A DNA stretch of 64,000 bases from Hymenobacter yonginensis. Lineage in GTDB: Bacteria; Bacteroidota; Bacteroidia; Cytophagales; Hymenobacteraceae. Both the position numbers and the translations under genes were made by a program. Of the stretch, positions 3,327 through 53,949 are shown piece after piece. The stretch covers positions 434,001-498,000 of the forward strand of contig NZ_CP115396.1 in NCBI RefSeq assembly GCF_027625995.1, written 5' to 3'. The notes under the pieces were generated by a model. It was not told the DNA's origin and ran no database searches. It saw only the letters and a program-made list of their open reading frames with translations. Positions within the stretch are counted from its first letter, which is position 1; every line of letters begins with the position of its first letter.

Positions 3327-3977
3327 ATGCGTGTTCTCCTCACCGCCGGGCCTACCTACGAGCCGCTGGACCCCGTGCGCTTCATCGGCAACCACAGCAC
3401 CGGCAAGATGGGCTACGCGCTGGCCGAGGCCTTCGCTGCCATCGGCGCCGACGTCACGCTGATCAGCGGCCCCACCAACCTGCCCGACCCCGCGCACCCA
3501 CGCATCCGCACGCAGCGCGTGGAAACCGCCGACCAGATGTACGCCGCCGCCGCCGCCCTGGCACCTACCGCTGATGTGTGGGTGTTTGCGGCCGCTGTGG
3601 CTGACTACAAGCCGGCGCACGTAGCGGCCGAGAAGATCAAAAAGGCCGGCGATACGCTCACGCTGGAGCTGGTAAAGAACGTAGATATTGCGGCCACGCT
3701 GGGGAAAACCAAGCGGCCCGAACAATTTTCGGTGGGTTTTGCGTTGGAGACCAACAACGAGGAAGCCCACGCCCAGGACAAGCTGCGCCGCAAAAACTTC
3801 GACCTCGTGGTGCTGAACTCCCTGCGCGACGCCGGGGCCGGTTTTCGCCACGATACCAACAAAGTGACGCTGCTCGACGCGCAGGGCGAATCCCGTATAT
3901 TTGAAGTAAAGCCCAAGGCCGAAGTGGCCCGGGATATTGTCGACGCCGTTCTTGCCCGCCTGCCCCGTGAAGTATAA
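3327..3977 (+). CDS. coaB: Phosphopantothenate-cysteine ligase, stand-alone CoaB domain
   Basis: The 216-residue protein carries the CoaB fold: LLTAGPTYEPLDPVRFIGNHSTGKMG at the N-terminus, then VFAAAVADYKP, the KI-K motif, and VLNSLRDAGAGF near the C-terminus. It joins cysteine to 4'-phosphopantothenate using CTP in bacteria. I prefer the ATG at 3327 (MRVLLTAGPT), where the fold begins. An in-frame ATG at 3306 lies inside the palindrome and would only add MTSLNTS. Together with coaC the total is about 400 residues, the length of a normal fused CoaBC, so both halves look complete. Confidence 0.9.
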   Translation: MRVLLTAGPTYEPLDPVRFIGNHSTGKMGYALAEAFAAIGADVTLISGPTNLPDPAHPRIRTQRVETADQMYAAAAALAPTADVWVFAAAVADYKPAHVAAEKIKKAGDTLTLELVKNVDIAATLGKTKRPEQFSVGFALETNNEEAHAQDKLRRKNFDLVVLNSLRDAGAGFRHDTNKVTLLDAQGESRIFEVKPKAEVARDIVDAVLARLPREV

Positions 3978-4890
3978 TCTGCCGCTGTCTGCTCTGCTGC
4001 TTGCCTTCGTTTCGCTGCTGGCCCGCCCCACTAAGGCTCAGGAAATCCAGGCCGAAGTGCGCGTGACCACCGAAAACGTGACCATCGCCGACCGCCAGCT
4101 GGTGCAGCAGATGCAGAACGACATGCAGTCGTTTCTGAACACCCGCTCCTTCACCAGCCAGACCTACCGGCCCGAGGAGCGGATCCGGATGCGCATTTTT
4201 GTAGGCATCACCGAAATTCCGCAGAACGGCCAGTACAAGGCCACGGCCCGCATCGTGTCGTCGCGGCCGGTGTATGGCACTGGCTTTGAAACGAATTTGC
4301 TCAGCTTCGCCGACCGCAACTTCGTCTTCAACTACTCGCCCCAGAACCCGATTGACTTCTCGGAAAACAACTTCGTGGGCAACCTGTCGGCGCTGCTGAC
4401 CTTCTACGCCTACCTCACCATCGGCATCGACCAGGACAGCTTCGCGCGCCTGAGCGGCTCGCCGTACTACGACCGGGCCCGCATTGTGGTGCAGAACGCC
4501 TCGTCGCAGACCATCACCAACGAGCAGGACGACGCTTGGAAGGACGGGCAGTCGCGCAACCGCTACTGGCTGCTCAACAACCTGCAGGACCCGCAGCTGG
4601 AAGCCATCCGCACGGGCATCTACGCCTACTACCGGCAGGGGCTCGACGTGTTCATTGAGAAGCCCGAGGAAGCCCGCACCAGCATCTACGGGGCCCTGGA
4701 GGGCGTGCACAACGCCGCCATCCGCCGTCCCGGCACGCTGCTGGCCCGCGCCTTCTTCGACACCAAGGCCGACGAAATTGCCAACATCTTCCGCAGCTCG
4801 CCCGACGCCCAGCAGAAGCAGCGCCTCACCACCCTGCTCACGGAAGTAGACCCCACCAACTCGGCCAAGTACCAAGCCATGCTGCGCTAA
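3967..4890 (+). CDS. DUF4835 family exported protein
   Basis: This protein of about 307 residues follows coaB in most Bacteroidota and belongs to DUF4835, whose function is unknown. The probable start is the GTG at 3967, which overlaps the last 11 bases of coaB and gives a signal peptide (hydrophobic LPLSALLLAFVSLLA, then TKAQ). An ATG at 3937 lies inside coaB and would put ten extra residues in front. The mature part opens with QAEVRVTTENV and has PVYGTGFETNLLSFAD in the middle. Tight coupling to coaB suggests co-transcription, but not a shared function. Confidence 0.8.
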   Translation: MKYNLPLSALLLAFVSLLARPTKAQEIQAEVRVTTENVTIADRQLVQQMQNDMQSFLNTRSFTSQTYRPEERIRMRIFVGITEIPQNGQYKATARIVSSRPVYGTGFETNLLSFADRNFVFNYSPQNPIDFSENNFVGNLSALLTFYAYLTIGIDQDSFARLSGSPYYDRARIVVQNASSQTITNEQDDAWKDGQSRNRYWLLNNLQDPQLEAIRTGIYAYYRQGLDVFIEKPEEARTSIYGALEGVHNAAIRRPGTLLARAFFDTKADEIANIFRSSPDAQQKQRLTTLLTEVDPTNSAKYQAMLR

Positions 4891-9413: not shown

Positions 9414-9500
9414 TACAGTAGCGCAAACTGTGTAGTTCGCACCCCCACGCCGTTGGGACGGGTTTATGCTGAGACGCGAACTATACGGCTTGCGCTACTA
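9414..9500. repeat. Diverged copy of the RAYT-associated palindrome (family B)
   Basis: TAGCGCAAACTGTGTAGTTCGCAC on the left and GACGCGAACTATACGGCTTGCGCTACT on the right resemble the two elements at 13086 and 13803 but carry several changes per arm and a different loop. Confidence 0.65.
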
Positions 9501-10340: not shown

Positions 10341-10368
10341 GCAGGCTGGGTAGAATTGTGTAAAACCT

Positions 10369-10476
10369 AAAAGAACGTCATGCTGAGCTTGCCGAAGCAT
10401 CTCGCGTGCTGATTCTGATTAGCAATCCAACATCAGCACGCGAGATGCTTCGGCAAGCTCAGCATGACGTTCTTTT
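10369..10476. repeat. Family A palindrome with perfect 45-bp arms
   Basis: 10369-10413 and 10432-10476 are exact reverse complements over 45 bases, with an 18-base loop. The arms contain AGAACGTCATGCTGAGC. No mismatch means either a recent copy or active correction. Confidence 0.9.
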
Positions 10477-10496
10477 ACTTTCTTCAACTCCGGAAA

Positions 10497-12813: not shown

Positions 12814-13077
12814 TTACCCCAGCACAATCTGTTTGGGATGCATTTCCACGGCATAGTCTTGTATCACCTGCCGCAGAATGTGCATGTCGCGGGGGCAATA
12901 CTCGGCAAATTCCTGCCAGTTCGTGAGCGTCAGCACGGGCGGCATCTCTACAATAGCCACGATAGAATCCCAGAAAGCGTCCCAACTCGGGCCGTACCAC
13001 TCTTCAAAGCCCAACTGCTCCTTGAACAACTGGTGAATGGCGGCTTTGCTGGTAATGCCGGTGAGGTCGAGGGTCAT
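12814..13077 (-). CDS. Barstar family ribonuclease inhibitor
   Basis: The 87-residue protein has the barstar plan: MTLDLTGITSKAAIHQLFKEQLGF, then YGPSWDAFWDSIV, where the conserved Y-G-x-x-W/L-D-A-x-W-D helix fits the barnase active site, and an aromatic LTNWQEF strand-helix turn. Barstar binds and blocks barnase-type RNases. No barnase-like gene (about 110-150 residues with a secretion signal) is visible nearby, so the partner is either elsewhere or foreign. Confidence in the family is high; the role is inferred. Confidence 0.85.
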   Translation of the reverse strand: MTLDLTGITSKAAIHQLFKEQLGFEEWYGPSWDAFWDSIVAIVEMPPVLTLTNWQEFAEYCPRDMHILRQVIQDYAVEMHPKQIVLG

Positions 13078-13085
13078 GGGTTAAA

Positions 13086-13167
13086 TGTAGCGCGAACTTT
13101 GTAGTTCGCGTCCCCGCGCCGTTCGAGTGATTTCGTTCTGGGGCGCGAACTACAAAGTTCGCGCCAC
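13086..13167 (+). repeat. Family B palindrome, downstream flank of the RAYT gene
   Basis: Left arm GTAGCGCGAACTTTGTAG, right arm its complement ending GTTCGCGCCAC; the loop reads GCGCCGTTCGAGTGATTTCG. It lies 12 bases beyond the transposase stop codon. The element at 13803 is the same sequence in the other orientation. Confidence 0.85.
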
Positions 13168-13179
13168 TGCGCTGCTGTG

Positions 13180-13773
13180 TCAGAACTCCTGCCAGTAGGT
13201 ATAGGGCCATTGCTCCCAGCTTTCCACCAAACCGGCTTTTACCGGGTTATTGAGCACGTAGGCAATTACGCGCTGCATCTCGTCGCCGCTGCGCACGATG
13301 TGGTCGTAGGTTTCGCGCTGCCAGAACTGGCCGGTGCGGCACAGGTGCTTGTTGGCCTGCAAAGCCGTATAGCCTTTGATGCGTTGCAGCGTTTCAGCCA
13401 GTGCCGGCGCCCCATCTTCAAGCGAAACAACCAGATGCACATGATTGGGCATGATGCAATAGCAGCGCAGGTAATAGGCTATTCCGTTGAAATGTTGCAA
13501 TGAACCACCCACCAGATTGGCTATTTCCGGGTGGCGGAGCCACGTAGCGCCATGAGCCGCCTCATCCAGCAGCTGATCAAAGCGGCCGAAGTAGCGGCGC
13601 TGCTCGGCATAAGTAGCTTCCGGTAATTGGTTTTCTCCCGTGTGAAACTGAGCCCGCAGGCGCGCAATGGTGGCAGCAGGCAATGAATCGGCTAGTCTGA
13701 ACGTCAGGAAAATATCGGAGCCCGGCGGCAGGCGGTGCGGCAGGTTGCGCTCATAGTACAGCAGATTGCTCAT
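13180..13773 (-). CDS. REP-associated tyrosine transposase (RAYT, Y1_Tnp)
   Basis: The 197-residue protein has the Y1 HUH nuclease core: hydrophobic-flanked histidines in CIMPNHVHLVV (the two metal-binding His) and a candidate nucleophile Tyr in QRETYDHIVRSGDEM, followed by VIAYVLNNPVKAGLV, a motif typical of RAYT proteins. The N-terminal third (YERNLPHRLPPGSDIFLTFRLADSLP) is also characteristic. RAYTs cut and join single-stranded DNA at REP hairpins. The gene is flanked by near-identical inverted palindromes, as expected for such a unit. It looks intact. Confidence 0.9.
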   Translation of the reverse strand: MSNLLYYERNLPHRLPPGSDIFLTFRLADSLPAATIARLRAQFHTGENQLPEATYAEQRRYFGRFDQLLDEAAHGATWLRHPEIANLVGGSLQHFNGIAYYLRCYCIMPNHVHLVVSLEDGAPALAETLQRIKGYTALQANKHLCRTGQFWQRETYDHIVRSGDEMQRVIAYVLNNPVKAGLVESWEQWPYTYWQEF

Positions 13774-13802
13774 TCAATAACAGAGTAAATAGCTGACTGA
13801 AA

Positions 13803-13890
13803 GATAGTAGCGCGAACTTTGTAGCTCGCGCCCCGGAACGAAATCACTCGAACGGCGCGGGGACGCGAACTACAAAGTTCGCGCTACTAT
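13803..13890 (-). repeat. Family B palindrome, upstream flank of the RAYT gene
   Basis: GATAGTAGCGCGAACTTTG on the left and the complement on the right. The loop (GAACGAAATCACTCGAACGG) is the reverse complement of the loop in the 13086 copy, so the two copies face opposite ways. Its right end overlaps the stop codon of the ABC transporter. Confidence 0.85.
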
Positions 13891-15698
13891 CCCGCCGTGT
13901 CGCCCACTTCGTCCTCGTCGTCCACCATTACCCGGGCCAACTTCTCGATGTTGAGGCTGCGGGCGGAGGCGTCGAAGATTTCGCGGTAGGTGCCGCGCAG
14001 GTCGTAGAGGTGCTCGTGGGTGCCGCTTTCCACCATGCGGCCCTGCTTCATCACGTAAATGCAGTCGGAATCGACAATCTGGGCGAGGCTGTGGGAAATG
14101 ATGACTACAGTGCGGCCCTTTTTGATGGCGTCGAGGGAGTTTTTGATTTGCTCGGTGGCAATGGCGTCAAGGGAGGCGGTGGGCTCGTCGAGGAAGATGA
14201 TGGGCGGGTTTTTCAGGAACAGCCGGGCAATGGCAATGCGCTGCTGCTGCCCGCCGGAGAGCTGCTGGGCGTCGGACTGGTAGCCGTTGGGCAGCTCCAT
14301 GATCTGCTCGTGCAGGTAGGCCTGGCGGGCGGCGGCCTTGATCTGGTCGAGGGTGGCATCCATTACGCCGTAGCGGATGTTTTCCTCAATGGTACCCTTG
14401 AAAATGTGGTTTTTCTGCAGCACTAGCCCGATTTGCCGGCGCAGGGCGTGGGTGTCGTAGTCGGCCAGCGGGCGGCCGTCGAGCAGCATCCGGCCGTGGT
14501 CGGGGGCGTAGAACTTGCAGAGCAGGTTGATGATGGTACTCTTGCCGGTCCCGCTCAGCCCCACCAGCGCGGTAGTTTTGCCGGCCTCAATGGTCAGGCA
14601 GACGTCGTGCAGGGCCTGGGTGCCGCTGGGGTAGGTGAAGTCCACGTTGCAGATATCGAAGGTGCCCTGCAGGTGGTCGGGCCGGAGCGGGCCGGTGGGC
14701 TCCACGGCGTCCTCGGCATCCAGAATGTCGAAGAAGCCCTCGGCGTAGGTGAGGGCGTCGTTCATCTCGTCGTAAATGCGGTGCAGCTGCCGGATAGGGG
14801 CCGAGACGTTGTTGAATAGCAGGATGTGGAACATGATGGCCCCGATGCTGATCTGCCGATCCAGCACCAGGTAGGCCGTCAGGATGATGATGAGCACCAC
14901 GCCAATCTGCTCGGTGAAGGTTTTGAGGCCGTCGTAGAGGAAGTTGGTTTTGCGCGTTTCCAGCTGGGCTTCCTGCAGGTTCTGCTGCACTCGGGTCTGC
15001 TTCTGCTCCTCGTAGTCTTCGCGCACGAAGCTCTTGATGACCACGGCCGAGTCGATGAGGTTCACGAGGCCCTGGCTGCGGGCTTCGCGCAGGCCACGCA
15101 ACGCCCGGCGGGTGCCATTGAGCTTATCGGCCTGGCGGTAGCTCAGCCAGAAGTACACCGGCAGCACCGCCACCGCCACCAGCCCCACGTACAGGTTGTT
15201 GGCAAACATCACCACCAGCGCCACAATGGAGTTGGCAAACAGCGGCAGAATGTCAATAAAGAAGTTCTGCACCAGCTTCATCAGACTCTCCACACCTCTA
15301 TCGATGCGGGTCTGGAGCTTGCCGGTCTGGTTGCCGCTGTCGGAGTAGAAGCCGAGCTGGTAGCTGAGCACCTTGTGCACCGCGTCGCGCACCAGCGTGC
15401 TGGATACGTTGATGCGGATTTTCTCGCCGTAGAACTTCTGCCCGAACTGAATGCCGGTATTGATGATTTCCTTGCCCAGCAGCAGCCCGCTCACCAGCAG
15501 CAGCAACTCCGCGCCCTCGGCCAGGCCCTGGTTGCGGTCGAGCAGACCCTGCACCGTATCCACGGTGTAGCGCAGCACAAACGGGTTCACCTGCGCCGCC
15601 AACGAGCCCACCAGCGTGAGCAGCAGCGTGGCAAGTACGAGCCCGCGGTACGGCCGCACGTACGGCAGCAGGCGTTTAATAATTTCCCAAAGACTCAT
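13887..15698 (-). CDS. ABC exporter, fused permease and ATPase
   Basis: The 603-residue protein starts with a six-helix ABC exporter membrane domain (about residues 15-310; LVLATLLLTLVGSLAAQ, IVALVVMFANNLYVGLVAVAVLPVYFW). The ATPase domain follows from about 345 to 580: Walker A VGLSGTGKST, signature QQLSGGQQQR, Walker B IIFLDEPTASLD and switch His in ISHSLAQI. It belongs to the MsbA/multidrug-type homodimer family; the substrate cannot be inferred. The C-terminal tail is short and acidic (DDEDEVGDTAG), and its TAG stop is inside the family B palindrome, so the true ancestral C-terminus may have been different. Confidence 0.9.
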   Translation of the reverse strand: MSLWEIIKRLLPYVRPYRGLVLATLLLTLVGSLAAQVNPFVLRYTVDTVQGLLDRNQGLAEGAELLLLVSGLLLGKEIINTGIQFGQKFYGEKIRINVSSTLVRDAVHKVLSYQLGFYSDSGNQTGKLQTRIDRGVESLMKLVQNFFIDILPLFANSIVALVVMFANNLYVGLVAVAVLPVYFWLSYRQADKLNGTRRALRGLREARSQGLVNLIDSAVVIKSFVREDYEEQKQTRVQQNLQEAQLETRKTNFLYDGLKTFTEQIGVVLIIILTAYLVLDRQISIGAIMFHILLFNNVSAPIRQLHRIYDEMNDALTYAEGFFDILDAEDAVEPTGPLRPDHLQGTFDICNVDFTYPSGTQALHDVCLTIEAGKTTALVGLSGTGKSTIINLLCKFYAPDHGRMLLDGRPLADYDTHALRRQIGLVLQKNHIFKGTIEENIRYGVMDATLDQIKAAARQAYLHEQIMELPNGYQSDAQQLSGGQQQRIAIARLFLKNPPIIFLDEPTASLDAIATEQIKNSLDAIKKGRTVVIISHSLAQIVDSDCIYVMKQGRMVESGTHEHLYDLRGTYREIFDASARSLNIEKLARVMVDDEDEVGDTAG

Positions 15699-39530: not shown

Positions 39531-39666
39531 GGATTTTCTCGGATCAGACGGACTGGTCGGATTTTGCAGACCGTACGGCCGGTCAACAATTGTAGCGCGA
39601 CGCCGAGGCGCCGCGCTACAATTGTCTACGAAATCCGACCAATCCGTCTGATCCGAAAAATCCGTG
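39528..39666. repeat. AAATCCG-family inverted element, copy 2
   Basis: Left CACGGATTTTCTCGG, right ...CGAAAAATCCGTG, enclosing a small hairpin at 39587-39624 with family B-like ends (CAATTGTAGCGCG / CGCGCTACAATTG). It overlaps the first codon of the pseudogene and ends just before the M42 stop codon. Confidence 0.75.
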
Positions 39667-48186: not shown

Positions 48187-49071
48187 ATGCCCAAGCCCTA
48201 TCCCTGGTATTACCGCCCGCTGAACTGGCTGTTGCGCGGCCTTGCTTTTCTGCCGCTGCCGGTTCTTTACGTGCTGGCCGACGGCATCTATCTGCTGCTG
48301 ACCTATGTGGTGCGCTACCGGCGCAACGTGGTTCTGACCAACCTACGCAACTCTTTTCCGGAAAAGCCGGAAGCGGAAATCCAGCGCATCGCTAAAGAGT
48401 TTTACCGGCACTTTGCGGAAGTGATGGTGGAAACGTTGAAGCTGGCGGTGATGCCCGCCGCGGAATTAAAGAAGCGGGTGTGGTTCAGCAACCCCGAGGT
48501 GCTGGAGCGCCACTTCGCGCAGGGCCGCACCGTGCTGGGGCTGTCGTCGCACGCGGGCAATTGGGAGTGGGTGCTGACTTCAGGTGCCTTATGGCTGTCG
48601 GCGCACGCCGATGGGGTGTACAAGCCGCTGAGCAATCCGTTTTTTGAGAGTTTCCTGCACCAGCTGCGCACCCGCACCGGGGCCGGCCTGATTCCGATGC
48701 GCGACACGCTGCGCGACATGGTGCAGCGCCGCGGCGAAACCCGCGTGGTGAGCCTGCTCTCCGACCAGGCCGCCGGCCCCGAAGACCGGCCCTACTGGAC
48801 CGAGTTCATGCACCAGGATTCTGGCTTCTACACCAGCGCCGACCGGCTGGCGGCCCGCTTCCATTGCCCGGTGGTGTACGTGAGCATCCGGCGCCTGCGC
48901 CGCGGTTACTACCAGATCATCCTCACGGAGCTATACGACGGCGACGCGCCGCTGCCCGCCAACGACTTCCCCATCACCGAAGCCTTCGTGCGGCAGCTGG
49001 AGCGGGATATTCAGGATTTTCCCGCTGACTACCTTTGGACGCACCGCCGCTGGAAGCATAAGCGCCCTTAG
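48187..49071 (+). CDS. Lysophospholipid/lipid A acyltransferase (LpxL/HtrB family)
   Basis: The 294-residue membrane enzyme starts with an N-terminal hydrophobic region (LNWLLRGLAFLPLPVLYVLADGIYLLLTYVV) and has the catalytic H-x4-E/D type motif in LSSHAGNWEWVL, then LSDQAAGPEDRPYWTEFMH. That fits the LpxL/HtrB family of lipid acyltransferases. The substrate could be lipid A or a Bacteroidota lipid such as the ornithine or glycine lipids. It starts right after the Ig-like gene. Confidence 0.88.
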   Translation: MPKPYPWYYRPLNWLLRGLAFLPLPVLYVLADGIYLLLTYVVRYRRNVVLTNLRNSFPEKPEAEIQRIAKEFYRHFAEVMVETLKLAVMPAAELKKRVWFSNPEVLERHFAQGRTVLGLSSHAGNWEWVLTSGALWLSAHADGVYKPLSNPFFESFLHQLRTRTGAGLIPMRDTLRDMVQRRGETRVVSLLSDQAAGPEDRPYWTEFMHQDSGFYTSADRLAARFHCPVVYVSIRRLRRGYYQIILTELYDGDAPLPANDFPITEAFVRQLERDIQDFPADYLWTHRRWKHKRP

Positions 49072-49240
49072 CTGTCATTGCGAGCAGCGCGAAGCAATCC
49101 TTCCTCTCGAAGACGAAAACCTCGATTTACAGACAAGCCCTCCGGCAGTAGGCTAGTAACCTAATGCCGGAGGGCTTTCTGCTTTAGGATCGTGCCTGCC
49201 ACAAGAAGAAGGATTGCTTCGCGCTGCTCGCAATGACAGC
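49071..49240. repeat. Family F composite palindrome, copy 2
   Basis: Outer arms GCTGTCATTGCGAGCAGCG and its complement; second arms AAGCAATCCTTCCT; inner hairpin CCCTCCGGCA / TGCCGGAGGG. It overlaps the last base of the acyltransferase stop codon and ends close to the Sua5 stop. Confidence 0.75.
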
Positions 49241-53848: not shown

Positions 53849-53949
53849 GCACGTCATTCCGAGCCGCGCGAGGAATCTCGCGTGCTGATGTTGTAGTGGT
53901 ATTGATTGCTACACTGGCGAGATTCCTCGCGCGGCTCGGAATGACGTGC
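53849..53949. repeat. Family A palindrome with perfect 32-bp arms
   Basis: Arms 53849-53880 and 53918-53949 are exact complements, starting GCACGTCATTCCGAGC. It follows the thioesterase stop codon directly. Confidence 0.9.

Follow-up and report, generated by a model that had tools for sequence, protein, structure and literature searches.

A RAYT gene between two mirror-image REPINs behind an ABC transporter gene in Hymenobacter yonginensis

Results

The RAYT gene and its flanking elements

The window analyzed here is a 64-kb (64,000-nucleotide) stretch of DNA from Hymenobacter yonginensis. On its minus strand, a gene of 197 codons (13180-13773) lies between a barstar-like gene (12814-13077, minus strand, 87 aa; PF01337, 59.2 bits) and an ABC transporter gene (13887-15698, minus strand, 603 aa; PF00005 and PF00664), the latter serving below as the marker for orthologous sites. 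The first-pass annotation had taken the middle gene for a Y1 transposase of the REP-associated (RAYT) kind, an identification borne out by matches to the REP-associated NCBIfam model NF047646.1 (86.3 bits, cut-off 80) and to Pfam PF01797 (Y1_Tnp; 27.3 bits, cut-off 23), and by alignment of the catalytic half of the protein with the TnpArep chain of PDB 4er8 (E 8e-8). Motif reading and the alignment to 4er8 place the catalytic His-x-His within NHVH at residues 110-113 and the catalytic Tyr at Y172, where the sequence YVLNNP begins, and locate W151, Q152, D157, H158 and R161 in the WQ...H..R region, to which reading of the GTAG foot is assigned (residue roles according to PMC6006769). Identity as an IS200/IS605 TnpA was considered and rejected (NF033573, only 17.6 bits against a cut-off of 55), and a PHROG search matched phrog_18266, an entry of unknown function. 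The closest relatives of the protein are from Hymenobacter, that of H. terrestris being 86% identical and that of the nearest genome, G076, 96% identical over residues 1-145. Many genomes of the genus also have a second family of RAYT-like genes, at about 30% identity (for example at loci L100, L101, L103, L113 and L116-L118); the flanks of its fetched loci have no common repeat.

Each side of the RAYT gene carries a REPIN, defined as two inverted REPs (PMC8049555; PMC3116915), in which the REPs surround a spacer and turn their feet outward. The downstream REPIN (13087-13167) has arms at 13087-13114 and 13140-13167, the upstream REPIN (13807-13887) at 13807-13834 and 13860-13887, and the 25-nt spacer of the one is reverse-complementary to that of the other. 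An arm consists of a GCGAACT-TTGT-AGTTCGC hairpin and a foot, which is GTAG in three of the four arms and GTGG in one; all four thus bear the 5' GT[AG]G foot of RAYT-flanking REPs, and one deviates from the REP pattern by a single mismatch. In the downstream REPIN, GTAG faces the barstar-like gene and GTGG (CCAC on the plus strand) faces the RAYT gene, while the final base of the upstream REPIN is also the final base of the ABC transporter stop codon. Both elements are themselves hairpins around the 25-nt spacer (28-nt arms, 93% complementary; 32-nt arms, 94% complementary), with fold z-scores of -6.6 to -9.2 over both strands and no equally good fold in 200 shuffles.

Together, positions 13087-13168 and 13806-13887 constitute an 82-nt inverted repeat, 96% complementary, whose halves stand 637 nt apart. 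Reverse-complementing one half leaves 79 of 82 bases identical, against 21 of 82 in direct orientation, and the corresponding figures for the spacers are 24 and 6 of 25. The mirror symmetry that had been described from the two palindromes and their loops is therefore confirmed, and the placement of the RAYT gene inside a pair of its own palindromes that face opposite ways agrees with the known layout of REPtrons. It had also been stated that the unit lacks both target duplications and IS-type terminal repeats: no target-site duplication is visible around it, but the REPINs themselves form 82-nt terminal inverted repeats.

Other elements in the window

A search of the whole window for the REP pattern, allowing up to three mismatches, gave six matches, where 3.5 are expected by chance and 14 of 100 shuffles reach six; a weak match to the pattern alone therefore means little. 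The four arms next to the RAYT gene account for all three exact matches and for one of the two with a single mismatch. The remaining two, at 9423 (one mismatch) and 9476 (three), belong to an element at 9414-9500 that had been proposed as a diverged relative of the flanking palindromes. That proposal is supported by its fold (z-scores -4.7 and -3.7) and by a nearly intact REPIN, with one and two mismatches in its arms, at the same site in genome G013; the site holds a decayed copy in G076, a single hairpin in G052 and no copy in G112. We regard 9414-9500 as a decayed REPIN of the same GAACT type, likely older than the window strain, and, because the site is common to other genomes, not as a recent product of the window's RAYT copy.

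A further element, at 39587-39624, had been read as a nested version of the same family. It is a double-foot hairpin, GTAGCGCG...CGCGCTAC, that has those feet in common with the RAYT-flanking elements and differs from them in its core, so that its membership is unsupported. Long palindromes at 10368-10477 and 53849-53949 have CGTCAT... ends and no GTAG foot, and resemble the CGTC-tagged repeats described in PMC3733652, which apparently have no dedicated transposase according to that source. A long inverted repeat at 49071-49240 (CTGTCATTGCGAGCAGCGCGAAGCAATCC) encloses a terminator-like hairpin. Rfam models at gathering score matched only two tRNAs in the window.

Matched flanks at the RAYT loci of relatives

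The comparison covered 73 unique loci (identical genes removed) whose RAYT is at least 41% identical to that of the window, together with nine fetched loci below 41%, a class of which the genus holds more than these nine. By a list of REP cores whose labels were assigned after the flanks had been viewed, and with the foot unscored, the same core stands on both sides of the gene in 70 of the 73 loci, the one-sided cases being L199, L205 and L224; by a count of 11-mers, at least six are common to the upstream and downstream flanks in 69. None of the nine distant loci has six 11-mers in common between its flanks; by the core list L103 does score on both sides, though with a core of six bases, and in L102 a REPIN-like pair is present downstream only.

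A RAYT tree was built from 62 of the 73 proteins (more than 170 residues, without a stop). On it the REP type, with 15 labels, changes 15 times, against at least 41 changes (mean 46) in 200 shuffles; about 15 REP core types follow the RAYT tree. As gene and flanks are linked, this co-divergence is evidence that the two descend and change together, and is no proof of recognition. The REPIN arrangement also recurs in relatives: pairs of neighboring arms face each other, feet outward, in 11 of 12 cases for G002 and in all 14 for G004, with three and five arms left single, respectively (for G004, among 33 of its 35 arms). In G076 (locus L099, around 3500-4500), extra 53-nt REP-spacer units lie on both sides of the frameshifted RAYT gene, a BIME-like expansion.

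Abundance of GAACT arms in the genus

GAACT arms were counted in 120 genomes of the genus to which the H. terrestris genome (G001) belongs, the window strain's own genome standing outside the counts. Because the GAACT and GGACT-TTGT types are two positions apart, a count at up to two mismatches merges them; it was discarded in favor of one at up to one mismatch. A reversed control pattern gave one match in the 120 genomes. Arms range from 0 to 139 per genome, and a flanked RAYT was found in 54 genomes. The median is 35 arms in the 13 genomes with a GAACT-flanked RAYT, 5 in the 41 whose flanked RAYTs are all of other types and 1 in the 66 that yielded no flanked RAYT (cognate genomes against all others, one-sided Mann-Whitney p 1.9e-5, kinship ignored); at least 10 arms are present in 10, 14 and 15 genomes of these groups, respectively. 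A RAYT of at least 65% identity occurs once per genome in all 13 GAACT-type genomes. The same relation to their own RAYTs is seen for two further REP types (n=7 and n=3), and the cognate type is the commonest of the three in 21 of 23 genomes (flank arms counted; 1, 2 and 1 mismatches allowed), the exceptions being G040, whose flank loops deviate from the pattern, and G091.

The association has departures in both directions. G066 and G086 have large populations (139 and 90 arms) although neither yielded a flanked RAYT, and G001, G037 and G054 possess the gene with only 4-5 arms, about the number that stand beside it. In the nearest genome, G076, there are 96 arms despite a one-base deletion, relative to the window copy, in its RAYT, which matches in two pieces; the deletion may be real or may be a sequencing error. 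Some apparent absences of RAYT may be assembly gaps, many of the assemblies being fragmented. A test on kinship pairs (63 genomes, about 330 nt of one gene) yielded three supported pairs, too few for significance. The expectation of the first-pass annotation that the element would have further copies in genomes, and that these would not be equally common where RAYT is missing, is nonetheless in accord with the counts in relatives, though orphan populations exist.

Turnover of REPIN sites

Individual sites differ among relatives. By their flanks, four of 13 fetched non-RAYT sites of G002 match one of 16 in G004. A full REPIN at L244 (G002) corresponds to a single hairpin with a foot at both ends at L263 (G004), and another at L239 (G002) to a double-footed single hairpin at L268 (G089); at one site where G002 has a full REPIN and G089 a single hairpin, G004 carries a different palindrome. 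Double-foot REPs could arise through central deletion of an inverted pair (PMC6006769), and these site pairs fit such an origin, with a direction of change, from pair to hairpin, that we infer. No clean empty site was found for seven G002 elements sought in two relatives, of which five were aligned and three read base by base.

Chromosomal address and orientation of the gene

The ABC transporter gene has a match at E up to 1e-150 in 98 genomes, and the DNA behind it was viewed in 65 of these and in the window, with known RAYT carriers included on purpose and the others taken mainly by identity rank; in G077 and G078 a second ABC copy (about 75% identical) was read instead, and in G055 and G066 contig ends lie nearby. 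A RAYT gene with REPINs stands directly behind the ABC gene in 11 of these 66 loci (the window and ten relatives), always with the first REP arm no more than 26 nt from the last ABC codon. Elsewhere the place is taken by 32 nt, including the stop codon, without a repeat (G113), a single double-foot REP (G086), a lone REPIN (G082) or various other sequence. The gap between the ABC and barstar genes ranges among relatives from about 30 to more than 2000 nt and differs in content, a pattern like that of an insertion hot spot. In G044 and G040 the close RAYT is located outside the ABC locus, in G040 on another contig; apart from these exceptions, the whole unit mostly stays at its address.

At this one address the gene occurs in two orientations. 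It is co-directional with the ABC gene in six loci (the window, G076, G001, G037, G038 and G017) and opposite to it in five (G054, G004, G089, G002 and G080), and the window and G054 are equal letter for letter at the outer, barstar junction while their RAYT genes point in opposite directions. The ABC tree requires three changes of orientation and rejects a single clade of opposite-facing genomes (p-AU 4e-62); the RAYT tree manages with two and tolerates such a clade (p-AU 0.15). A grouping of the window, G076 and G001 is likewise rejected on the ABC gene (p-AU 6e-13) and is recovered by the RAYT tree (support 86/90). Since the RAYT tree asks for only two changes and tolerates the clade, one switch combined with exchange of units between lineages fits as well as repeated flips. 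Repeated flipping in place was accordingly rejected as a required reading, and from the trees the two orientations may reflect either inversion in place or exchange of units.

Discussion

These findings strongly favor the view that the unit is a REPtron, in which a RAYT, a domesticated single-strand transposase of the HUH/Y1 nuclease kind, lies between an ABC transporter and a barstar gene and is bracketed by two REPINs of its own specificity. REPtrons are an already known kind of system, of which this unit is another member, well supported by comparison. A mode of action can be drawn by analogy. TnpAREP binds single-stranded REPs in their folded form, cleaves at dinucleotides close by and rejoins ends (PMC8266576); as with the enzymes of E. 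coli and Stenotrophomonas, each REP in Hymenobacter would fold on single-stranded DNA, and the RAYT would read its GTAG foot and hairpin, cut alongside by means of its tyrosine, and rejoin the ends. REPINs would now and then be copied or moved to other intergenic sites in this way, while the gene itself would mostly stay put. Most likely, then, the RAYT acts on its own REPs and spreads REPINs at a low rate, although cutting, strand transfer and copying are here ascribed to it from its characterized relatives.

The REPINs could instead serve as the terminal inverted repeats of an ordinary transposon whose gene and both ends travel together, an explanation that we consider improbable. It would account for the 82-nt inverted ends, for the close RAYTs of G044 and G040 off the ABC locus, and for the conflict between RAYT and ABC trees over G001, by which units may have been exchanged between lineages. 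Against it stand the recurrence of the gene right behind the same ABC gene in the window and ten relatives, its single copy per genome (at least 65% identity) in 13 genomes, 10 of which have arms far outnumbering the gene, the missing target duplication, and the poor score with the IS200/IS605 model. Slighter still is the chance that the neighboring genes use the hairpins as bidirectional terminators or mRNA-end structures, with an incidental link to RAYT, as might be suggested by the one-base overlap with the ABC stop codon and by the predominance of REPs downstream of coding regions in other bacteria (PMC3733652): the hairpin sequence shifts with RAYT lineage on both sides of the gene, nine fetched distant RAYT-like genes are without such a flanking repeat by 11-mers, and genomes that possess the matching RAYT are enriched in copies. 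A terminator role could be secondary to the RAYT link.

Within the REPtron reading, a more speculative notion concerns the mirror layout itself. With REPINs in mirror image, the RAYT gene might behave as an invertible cassette whose chromosomal address is fixed, flipped in place more than once through recombination between REPINs or strand transfer by RAYT, the repeats thus governing orientation as well as serving as substrate. We offer this tentatively and think it unlikely on present comparisons, yet the mirror layout and the two orientations at one address raise cassette inversion as a testable question. No paper on REPtron inversion was found in a search outside of which preprints and most subscription journals lay. 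How a RAYT singles out its own REPs has been examined for a few enzymes (PMC8266576). The 73 unique loci of a single genus, with about 15 hairpin types that follow the protein tree, place each protein adjacent to its likely target, and such matched RAYT-REP pairs are a ready panel for recognition swap experiments. Neither the panel nor the orientation question changes the kind of system; what makes the unit useful is how many matched pairs a single genus provides, together with the occurrence of both orientations at the same address.

Searches of the same scope, without preprints and most subscription journals, gave no paper for Hymenobacter with 'repetitive extragenic palindromic' and, judged by titles and the starts of abstracts, nothing relevant on RAYT in Hymenobacter; the genus is also unnamed in the main text of PMC6006769. 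By the TnpAY1 classification in that source, subclass 2.4 (RAYT group 4) and subclass 2.7 are the candidates for this protein: NHVH, WQ and YVLNNP fit both, apart from V in place of I. Subclass 2.4 is described there as having canonical and double-foot REPs and as abundant in Bacteroidetes, subclass 2.7 as having long GT[AG]G REPs; D157, at the place of E100 in E. coli, fits 2.7 rather than 2.4. The REP stems here are free of the bulge that is described for group 2.

The unit resembles the REPtrons of E. coli and Stenotrophomonas (PMC8266576, PMC6006769) in its HUH/Y1 protein, its GTAG-footed hairpins in inverted pairs around the gene, and the multiple genomic copies of the matching REP, here counted in relatives. 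It differs from them in subclass, in flanking REPINs that are near-perfect mirror images, and in an activity that is here predicted. High REP copy number depends on the cognate RAYT in Pseudomonas and Stenotrophomonas, where exceptions are attributed to RAYT loss or to mutated flanking REPs (PMC3686654), and E. coli REPINs are commoner in genomes with RAYT, yet present without it (PMC8049555). Whereas at least 69 REPINs are reported per E. coli genome (PMC8049555), GAACT arms here number 0-139 per genome, and only 54 of 120 genomes have a flanked RAYT. The Hymenobacter counts parallel what is described for Pseudomonas and Stenotrophomonas (PMC3686654) and for E. coli (PMC8049555), persistence of REPs beyond their RAYT included; unlike the systems of PMC3686654, those described here belong to a different phylum, have other REP sequences, and comprise about 15 REP types in one genus.
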